Below, one piece after another: positions 25,431 to 27,488 of a stretch of 34,692 nt of DNA. Below the pieces are notes generated by a model. That model was not told where the DNA came from. It was given only the letters and a program-made list of their open reading frames with translations, and did not search any database. The stretch's first letter is position 1; each line of letters opens with the position of its first letter. Source of the stretch: Chitinophaga pinensis. Lineage in GTDB: Bacteria; Bacteroidota; Bacteroidia; AKYH767-A; OLB10. The translations under genes and the position numbers were made by a program. The stretch is taken from assembly GCA_943332105.1 (NCBI GenBank), contig CALQOD010000023.1, positions 1 through 34,692 of the forward strand. Reading direction: 5' to 3'.

Positions 25431-25456
25431 CCCTTTTTTAATAAAAAAAGGGTAAG
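25431..25456 (-). terminator. Terminator of the SRP RNA gene
   Basis: The RNA's closing CTTACCC is followed on the minus strand by seven T residues, and CCCTTTTTT/AAAAAAGGG (25431-25452) can fold as a further hairpin. The symmetry could also stop plus-strand transcription. Confidence 0.6.
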
Positions 25457-25547
25457 CTACTTACATCGCACCGCTCAACCTCTTATCCTTGCTACCTTCC
25501 GGTCCTGGGGAGGTTCGAAGGAGCTGGTCGTATAAGACTTACCCCGC
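25450..25547 (-). ncRNA. ffs: Signal recognition particle RNA, small bacterial type
   Basis: RNA of about 98 bases that binds Ffh and targets membrane proteins to the inner membrane. The apical domain reads CAGGACCGGAAGGTAGCAAG on the minus strand, with the GGAA tetraloop and the asymmetric A/C internal loop bases needed for Ffh. The ends pair: 5' GGGTAAG (minus strand from 25544) with 3' CTTACCC (to 25450), and the flanks CTTAT and ATAAG continue the rod. There is no Alu domain, so this is the short 4.5S form. A textbook promoter (TTTG, 18 bases, TACATTTG) ends 3 bases before the 5' end. End positions are accurate to a few bases. Confidence 0.92.
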
Positions 25548-25549
25548 CA

Positions 25550-25579
25550 CAAATGTAAAAATTTATGGTCATCCTCAAA
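25550..25579 (-). promoter_or_regulatory. Complete -33/-7 promoter of the SRP RNA gene
   Basis: On the minus strand TTTG (25579-25576), 18-base spacer, TACATTTG (25557-25550). It predicts a transcript start near 25546, matching the first bases of the folded RNA. Confidence 0.75.
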
Positions 25580-25737: not shown

Positions 25738-26394
25738 ATGAAATTCTTTATTGATACAGCCAATCTTGATCAGATTCGCGAAGCCTATGATTTAGGTGTT
25801 TTAGATGGAGTAACTACTAATCCATCGCTAATGGCGAAAGAAGGCATTAAAGGAAAAGATGCAGTTTTAAAACATTATTTAGATATCTGTGAAATAGCAA
25901 AAGGGGGTGATGTTAGTGCAGAAGTGATTTCAACGGATTATGAAGGTATGATTCGTGAAGGTGAAGAGCTAGCAGAATTACATCCTCAAATAGTTGTAAA
26001 GATTCCAATGATTAAAGATGGAGTAAAGGCAATCCGTTACTTTACCAATAAAGGAATTAAAACCAATTGTACGTTAGTGTTTTCTGCAGGACAAGCTTTA
26101 TTAGCAGCAAAGGCAGGTGCAACATATGTATCTCCTTTTATCGGACGCTTAGACGATATTTCATTTGATGGAATTGAACTTATTGATCAAATTGTTCACA
26201 TCTATCGCGAGTATGGATATGAAACGCAAGTATTAGCAGCGAGTATCCGTCATACAATGCATATTATCAAATGTGCAGAGGTGGGGGCTGACGTTGTTAC
26301 AACACCGTTACAACCAATATTAGATTTGTTAAAGCATCCGTTAACAGATTCTGGTTTAGCGAAGTTTTTATCTGATGCGCAGAAGTTTGCGTAA
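25738..26394 (+). CDS. Transaldolase / fructose-6-phosphate aldolase family (TalC/Fsa type)
   Basis: Short-form transaldolase, 218 residues, TIM barrel. It starts [16 protein letters not shown] and has [18 protein letters not shown] with the Schiff-base lysine (about Lys86), [32 protein letters not shown] and ASIRHTMHI. The family contains both transaldolases and fructose-6-phosphate aldolases; sequence alone does not separate them securely. With the split transketolase in this window it would complete the non-oxidative pentose phosphate pathway. A one-mismatch -7 element (TAATTTAG, 25714-25721) lies upstream and a terminator follows. Confidence 0.92.
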
Positions 26395-26412
26395 ACATAT
26401 ATTGTGCTAATA

Positions 26413-26440
26413 AAAAGCCCTGAGTCTAGTAGGGGCTTTT
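26413..26440 (+). terminator. Rho-independent terminator after the transaldolase gene
   Basis: AAAAGCCC (26413-26420) and GGGCTTTT (26433-26440) form an 8-base stem ending in Ts, 18 bases after the stop codon. Confidence 0.75.
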
Positions 26441-26456
26441 ATGTTTTCAAAACTAT

Positions 26457-26479
26457 TCAAGCAAATTTAATTTGCTTGA
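26457..26479. repeat. Perfect 23-base palindrome at the edge of the rhodopsin fragment
   Basis: TCAAGCAAATT and AATTTGCTTGA are exact reverse complements around a single T (26468). The right arm runs directly into the first recognisable rhodopsin codons, so the palindrome marks the left breakpoint of the gene remnant. It is not followed by a T tract. Confidence 0.75.
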
Positions 26480-26751
26480 GACAGGCGAATCACCAACATT
26501 TTTCCGTTATGTAGACTGGATTCTTACTGTTCCTTTAATGTGCGTAGAATTCTATTTAATCACTAAGAAAGCTGGTGCTAAAATTTCGTTATTATGGAAG
26601 TTGATTTTTGCTTCAATAGTGATGTTAGTAACAGGTTACTTTGGAGAAACGATTTCAAGAGATTCAAGTGTAATGTGGGGCGTAATTTCAGGTGCTGCAT
26701 ATTTCTATATTGCGTACTTGATTTGGTTTGGTGAAGTTGCTCAACTAGCTC
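26472..26751 (+). pseudogene. Proteorhodopsin fragment (helices C to E only)
   Basis: The frame reads ETGESPTFFRYVDWILTVPL and on to YFYIAYLIWFGEVAQLA, which is the centre of a flavobacterial-type proteorhodopsin, the light-driven proton pump with retinal. In proteorhodopsin numbering Arg94 and Asp97 (GAC, 26514-26516; proton acceptor), Thr101 and Glu108 (GAA, 26547-26549; proton donor) are intact, giving the D-T-E triad of proton pumps; Met105 (26538-26540) predicts green tuning. The signal sequence, helices A and B, helices F and G and the retinal-binding lysine are missing, and there is no ATG at the start of homology. The remaining frame has no internal stop or frameshift, so the loss seems recent, unless this is an assembly join. 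It cannot encode a working pump. Confidence 0.85.
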
Positions 26752-26779
26752 AGCGATATTACATGCCAAGCTTGCCACT

Positions 26780-26869
26780 GCAACGCGCCGTTCAGGTGGT
26801 TATCCAGGTCCTGGAATATTACCAGGTAATGCACGCACATTTAGTGTAAGTATAGGTGGCATGTTTTAA
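26780..26869 (+). pseudogene. Probable C-terminal tail of a TonB-dependent receptor (remnant)
   Basis: One frame off from the rhodopsin fragment, codons from about 26780 read ATATRRSGGYPGPG, then ILPGNARTFSVSIGGMF and a stop at 26867-26869. The PGNxRTFxVSxxxxF ending with a final phenylalanine is how TonB-dependent outer membrane receptors finish their last beta strand. Only about 25-30 codons remain and no start or barrel precedes them. The match is short, so the assignment is moderate. Confidence 0.5.
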
Positions 26870-26969
26870 TTCTATTTAGTTATTCTAATGCTTTTTGTTT
26901 CGTTATAATGCAATTGAAAATGACTTTGTGCCTTAGTCGAATTTGTAATATATTTACGAAATTTATATT

Positions 26970-27488
26970 ATGAAAAATAAATTTACTGCAATTGTTTTAA
27001 TGTTGTTTTCCTTCTTCATCGGATTTCAATTAAACGGAATGATGTCGAGCTACGATAGTAACAAGGGTAGAGTTACCAGCATCGGAGGTGTATTTTTCAA
27101 GTGCAAAAATCCGAAGGAGTTACGTAACTGGTATAAAGAAAATCTAGGCTTTAGTGTTAACGATTACGGTGCTGTTTTCGAATGGCATCATGGAGCTGAT
27201 TCAACCAAAAAAGGATTTACACAATGGAGTCCGTTTAATGAGAAGACGAAATACTTTGAGCCATCTGCTAAAGACTTTATGATTAATTTTCGTGTAGTGA
27301 ATATTGAATCGTTAGTGCAGGACTTGAAAAACAAAAATGTTAACGTGGTCGATTCGATTGAGTCATTTGATTATGGAAAGTTTGTTCACATCATGGATCT
27401 CGAAGGGAATAAAATTGAATTATGGGAGCCCAATGATCAAGTATATGAGAAGATGGGTTTAGATATGGGATTTACAACGATTAAATAA
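26970..27488 (+). CDS. VOC (glyoxalase/bleomycin-resistance fold) protein with N-terminal anchor
   Basis: Single VOC-fold protein, 172 residues. The first 25 residues are hydrophobic (FTAIVLMLFSFFIGFQLNGM), an uncleaved anchor or signal peptide, unusual for a fold that is mostly cytoplasmic. The VOC module runs from about 37 to 160: IGGVFFKCKNPKELRNWYKENL at the start and FVHIMDLEGNKIELWEP at the end, with a glutamate in the usual metal-ligand place. WHHGAD may provide a histidine. Reaction unknown; the family covers lyases, dioxygenases and binding proteins. A near-consensus TATATTTA lies upstream (about 26949-26956). Confidence 0.82.
   Translation: MKNKFTAIVLMLFSFFIGFQLNGMMSSYDSNKGRVTSIGGVFFKCKNPKELRNWYKENLGFSVNDYGAVFEWHHGADSTKKGFTQWSPFNEKTKYFEPSAKDFMINFRVVNIESLVQDLKNKNVNVVDSIESFDYGKFVHIMDLEGNKIELWEPNDQVYEKMGLDMGFTTIK

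Follow-up and report, generated by a model that had tools for sequence, protein, structure and literature searches.

A rhodopsin fragment between a transaldolase-like and a VOC-like gene as the probable scar of a recent multi-gene deletion

How the centre of a proteorhodopsin gene, with both ends missing, came to lie between a transaldolase-like gene and a VOC-like gene is the question raised by one locus of the draft genome G000, whose host is described as a freshwater-type bacterium. Rhodopsin genes are often gained and lost in Bacteroidota, and their loss is usually read from an empty site only. The window analysed was the whole of contig C23 (34,692 bp) of G000 (2.77 Mb, 147 contigs, 96% complete), the one draft assembly of the species on which the evidence is based. 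The best reading of the locus would appear to be a very recent deletion by replication template switching, combined with the correction of a quasipalindrome; judged from the sequence, a probability of roughly 0.7 seems appropriate for it.

The rhodopsin fragment and the pieces around it

An earlier note on this DNA had recognized the uninterrupted centre of a proteorhodopsin, and a rhodopsin profile search bore this out: the 94-residue translation of positions 26472–26753 matched Pfam Bac_rhodopsin (PF01036) with E = 2e-18 over profile positions 63–152 of 224, without stops. The closest chains of known structure were the proteorhodopsins 9jov/9jou (best E = 1.2e-36). The identity of the fragment as a rhodopsin is far beyond chance. 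Alignment to the intact gene of G001, a congeneric MAG, set its coordinates at 26475–26752 on the plus strand (278 bp, about 92 codons, region of helices C–E); the borders proposed earlier were at the right place, but off by 1–3 bases. At the DNA level 256 of the 278 bases were the same (92.1%), and the amino acids were 100% identical over 92 codons; all 22 base differences were synonymous, 21 of them at third positions. As had been claimed, equivalents of Arg94, Asp97, Thr101, Met105 and Glu108 could be read in the motif FFRYVDWILTVPLMCVEF, so that the Arg/Asp/Thr/Glu set and the Met105 equivalent of Bacteroidota-type proteorhodopsins are also present in the retained piece. Unlike a full protein of this type, however, only about 92 of 238 codons are left; the fragment stops before helix F, and the native start, helices A–B, helices F–G and the retinal-binding lysine of helix G are missing, again in agreement with the earlier claim. 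The fragment cannot be classed as a functional rhodopsin; the locus is best explained as a deletion scar without function.

The stretch 25738–27488 of the window consists of four exact, abutting tiles when aligned to the parental locus of the congeners G001 and G006. The first tile (25738–26477, 86% to G001) contains the intact left neighbour, the transaldolase-like gene tal (25738–26394, plus strand; PF00923, E = 1.6e-59; 86–87% DNA identity to G001, G004 and G006), and, as left border of the scar, an intergenic end with the last codons of a convergent HSP20 gene (26433–26477, minus strand; 89% to G006:C22 12937–12980), which is contiguous with tal in G001:C83 8261–9007. The second tile is the rhodopsin fragment. 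The third comprises 26 bp of a gene for a 375-aa photolyase/cryptochrome-like protein (26753–26778, minus strand, inverted with respect to the other tiles), with 26 of 26 bases matching G001:C83 4056–4081 and G006:C22 10489–10514 in the opposite orientation. The fourth (26779–27488, 88% to G006) starts with the C-terminus of a TonB-dependent receptor (26779–26869, plus strand; the last base of a Tyr codon, 29 codons and the stop; ATRRSGGYPGPGILPGNARTFSVSIGGMF), the residues of which agree with the TonB receptors of G006 and G004 save one or two, and ends with the intact right neighbour, the VOC-like gene (26970–27488, plus strand), with 91% protein identity to the gene beside the TonB receptor in G006. 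Three of these pieces had been missed in the earlier note: the 3' end of HSP20 (to 26477), the inverted 26 bp and the TonB C-terminus. Its name "VOC" rests on reading the sequence, which does resemble that of a glyoxalase/VOC protein, but a Pfam match at E ≤ 0.001 was not found for 26970–27488. Upstream of tal, a Bacteroidales small SRP RNA gene (Rfam RF04183) is present on the minus strand at 25446–25551.

The parental locus and the extent of the loss

Full rhodopsins of 238 aa, followed by blh, are present in G001 and G002, which belong to the same genus. In G001 a single contig (C83; CANFIN010000083.1, MAG Jr-14may18-136) carries, in this order, tal, HSP20 (convergent), NmrA, the full rhodopsin, blh, the 375-aa photolyase/cryptochrome-like gene, a 484-aa photolyase and the TonB receptor. 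Contig C22 of G006 contains HSP20, NmrA, two photolyase-like genes, the TonB receptor, the VOC-like gene and an alpha/beta hydrolase, with tal farther out past other genes. When pieced together from these two contigs, since tal, rhodopsin and the VOC-like gene are never all on one contig, the parental order reads tal, HSP20, NmrA, rhodopsin, blh, 375-aa photolyase-like gene, 484-aa photolyase, TonB receptor and VOC-like gene. The combined contigs thus place a full rhodopsin between tal and the VOC-like gene in relatives, as the earlier note had proposed to check. Because congeners carry an intact cluster between the same neighbours, the rhodopsin copy was lost by local deletion; all tiles stem from the congeners' native locus, which speaks against a rhodopsin piece having entered the gap between tal and the VOC-like gene by horizontal transfer, and this reading was rejected.

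Several features of the relatives may be mentioned here. The photolyase/cryptochrome-family pair (375 and 484 aa) is found directly behind blh in both G001 and G002, and an FAD-binding domain was the only Pfam match of the 375-aa protein. About 7 kb of extra genes (G006:C22 8516–15838) lie between HSP20 and tal in G006, with none there in G001; several of them read, by inspection, like sugar-nucleotide epimerases or glycosyltransferases. In a short three-gene tree, G004 and G003 + G005 fell outside, and G000, G001, G002 and G006 were left unordered.

The lost span reaches from the last HSP20 codons to the last 29 codons of the TonB receptor, minus the 278 bp of rhodopsin and the 26-bp inverted piece. 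Of about 8.6 kb, 0.3 kb are left, so that about 8.3 kb net were lost (estimated along G001, with the TonB receptor completed from G006). The event is a complex deletion of HSP20, NmrA, rhodopsin, blh, two photolyase-like genes and the TonB receptor; the earlier suggestion of a recent local rearrangement which cut off both ends holds with respect to a local deletion, but several genes were involved, not rhodopsin alone. Between the 9.3-kb G001 contig and G000, the only matches were tal with its flank, the rhodopsin piece, the 26-bp piece and a few stretches of 35–40 bp, which fall in a terminator-like stretch after tal. A family search of G000 gave a single rhodopsin match (26454–26750, stop-free); neither a second full rhodopsin nor displaced copies of the cluster were found in its 147 contigs at 96% completeness. 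It had been proposed that the lineage recently had a rhodopsin or still has one elsewhere; the absence of non-synonymous changes among the 22 differences agrees with the first alternative, and the second does not apply to G000. Genome searches showed also that HSP20 and blh (PF15461, present in G001 and G002) are absent from G000. Two other photolyase-domain genes (C8 and C16) are kept. With respect to the suggested search for blh and crt genes, a CrtY-like lycopene cyclase was found at C100 and, because it remains, beta-carotene may still be made, judging from gene content, but would not be cleaved to retinal by Blh.

Joints, mechanism and alternative explanations

The three joints lie within 305 bp, are all of one locus and follow each other in locus order. 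At joint 1 (26474–26477) 3 bp, CTT, are shared; at joints 2 and 3 the number of shared bases is 0. Joint 1 is straddled by a perfect palindrome, TCAAGCAAATT-T-AATTTGCTTGA (26457–26479), in which the outer GA of the right arm is rhodopsin-derived. No other perfect hairpin of the 34.7-kb window has arms of at least 10 and a loop of 3 or less. The left arm of G001 and G006 pairs with the G000 right arm at 8 of 11 positions, the left arm of G000 itself at 11 of 11; the 3 left-arm bases which are changed in G000 versus G001 and G006 are exactly the 3 mismatches, and the changed base at 26458 now pairs with a rhodopsin-derived G. The chance of a coincidence of such perfecting changes is about 2e-5 to 4e-5 by a rough estimate. 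A nearby change at 26456 does not fit arm correction, and the palindrome changes could partly predate the joint, as the reference arms come from other species (G001 and G006). For a tRNA-related integration site at the joint, considered because of the D-arm-like GCTCAACTAGCTCAGC, ARAGORN yielded no tRNA, and the bases are mostly ordinary rhodopsin codons; this candidate was rejected.

A template-switch deletion is favoured because of the palindrome correction, the inverted piece, which matches the same locus (26/26 within the 375-aa photolyase-like gene), and the absence of Ku in the genus: a search for PF02735 gave no Ku in seven genomes of the genus, G000 and six congeners, but did detect the B. 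subtilis control. A replication fork would have stalled or broken near the HSP20 end; a first switch would have led into rhodopsin, at the 3-bp microhomology, a second to the opposite strand inside the photolyase-like gene, where 26 nt were copied, and a third would have restored the original strand close to where the TonB receptor ends; how many steps there were, and in which order, is a reconstruction. Then or soon after, the quasipalindrome at joint 1 would have been perfected by copying from the other arm. The cell would thereby have lost rhodopsin and retinal synthesis, with the lycopene cyclase and two other photolyase/cryptochrome genes staying in place. Template-switch models usually expect microhomology, but joints 2 and 3 have none. 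In rearrangements of E. coli, paired template switches produce inverted pieces (PMC3161906), and the copying of one arm from the other is a known signature of template switching at quasipalindromes (E. coli; PMC7202029).

The age of the scar bears on this reading. Over the 92 rhodopsin codons dS between G000 and G001 was 0.48, and neutral evolution of the scar tiles from the split of the two onwards would be expected to bring roughly 40–67 non-synonymous hits; observed were 0 in the rhodopsin tile and at most 1 private change in the TonB tail. Because none of the 22 changes in the rhodopsin tile is non-synonymous, the scar should be young, i.e., younger than about 5–7% of the G000–G001 divergence by this count, provided that it is real; this bound is for zero hits and would be about half as high again with one. 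That the rhodopsin amino acids are conserved can be put down to selection, which until recently acted on a gene still intact. An undecayed fragment is, however, equally predicted by an artefact, and dates the scar only if the scar is real.

An assembly or amplification artefact is the main and a serious rival to a real deletion, although it appears rather unlikely. The contig would have been built across a chimeric molecule, and the true genome would keep the cluster, unassembled or unbinned. Besides the zero decay, the state of the draft (147 contigs, 96% completeness) is consistent with such an origin; single-cell MDA products carry one chimera per 13–27 kb (PMC2668756), and MDA chimeras are often inverted with deletions (PMC1855051). 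The close spacing of three joints from one locus, with the locus order kept, argues against it. The 0 bases shared at joints 2 and 3 rule out repeat collapse and would be unusual for MDA chimeras; for those with segments less than 10 kb apart, complementarity of at least 2 bp was reported for 93.5% of those joined in inverted and for 90.9% of those joined in direct orientation (PMC1855051). Furthermore, none of the bin's other contigs contains the missing 8 kb, an artefact offers no cause for the perfecting of the palindrome at the joint, and about 20 kb surrounding the scar are otherwise colinear with G001 and G006, further mosaics not being found there.

A real deletion could also have arisen by end joining of broken DNA, with capture of a short fragment as filler; two joints without shared bases and a short inverted filler do resemble ligated broken ends, but the lack of Ku in the seven genomes of the genus, as opposed to its detection in the B. 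subtilis control, and the hairpin correction at joint 1, which points to copying, make this improbable. Retention of the fragment for a new function, as a short membrane peptide or RNA, is hardly credible: it is true that 125 codons, counted from TTG at 26472, stay open across the joint and that the amino acids are perfectly conserved versus G001, but native start, helices F–G, retinal lysine and blh are lacking, the end of the open stretch reads the photolyase-like and TonB sequence out of frame, and an Rfam search found no RNA family match at the scar.

Parallel losses and comparison with known systems

The loss in G000 is not the only one in the genus. G006 is without rhodopsin and has kept the last approximately 50 codons of blh between NmrA and the 375-aa photolyase-like gene (203 bp, 89%, intergenic part included); this remnant (G006:C22 6453–6789) adjoins the truncated start of a small membrane-protein gene, which is longer in G004. 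The loss of rhodopsin and most of blh in G006 is a second, independent deletion with other joints. These relics imply that the module was once present in the lineages of both G000 and G006; its inheritance from a common ancestor is the simplest explanation. At the photolyase-like genes of G004 neither rhodopsin nor blh was found, and among the 24 genomes of the family that were compared, full rhodopsins were found in only 4.

Near-identical rhodopsins of the Bacteroidota type were also seen in records titled as Methylotenera, Myxococcales, Polynucleobacter and Bdellovibrio MAGs; these four are probably misnamed or misbinned contigs, or cases of transfer. Two contigs with this type of rhodopsin are present in MAG CANETC01, and another rhodopsin-bearing record (L126) has two rhodopsin genes about 2.7 kb apart, with blh between them.

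If the scar is real, the loss took place very recently, and template switching is indicated rather than gradual decay; a single step could then take away rhodopsin and retinal synthesis together with two photolyase-like genes and a TonB receptor. The fuller claim, namely that one template-switch event deprived a wild bacterium without Ku of the whole light-use cluster, that an almost fresh scar was left, with a 26-nt inverted templated insert and a quasipalindrome perfected across the new joint, and that the loss was repeated independently with other joints in G006, is evenly balanced between being right and wrong. Should the single-event reading be true, a molecular record would be at hand of how photoheterotrophy is lost and, with the separate loss in G006, the genus would be a natural system for asking when losing the use of light pays off. 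No rhodopsin relics of this kind were found in the papers covered by a literature search.

Complex rearrangements in starving E. coli (PMC3161906) likewise have several novel joints per event and inverted segments by repeated template switches. They are mostly amplifications or inversions on the kb scale with microhomology of 3–30 bp, whereas the present case is a deletion with a 26-bp inverted piece and 3, 0 and 0 bp at the joints. In quasipalindrome mutation of E. coli (PMC7202029) an imperfect inverted repeat is likewise perfected from one arm; unlike there, the corrected palindrome of G000, as deduced from its bases, spans a fresh deletion joint and includes bases of the joined gene. In marine Flavobacteriia proteorhodopsin and blh were likewise lost together between conserved neighbours, and genomes with proteorhodopsin, which is tied to extra photolyases, tend to be richer in photolyase paralogues (Kumagai et al. 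2018, PMC5932025). The biology of the loss is of the expected kind, in another group of Bacteroidota; what is uncommon is a legible, very young and unusually clean scar. Unlike in the marine Flavobacteriia, photolyase-like genes, HSP20, NmrA and the TonB receptor went in the same event, and whereas the loss was inferred there from empty sites, a fragment, its joints and an inverted insert remain here.
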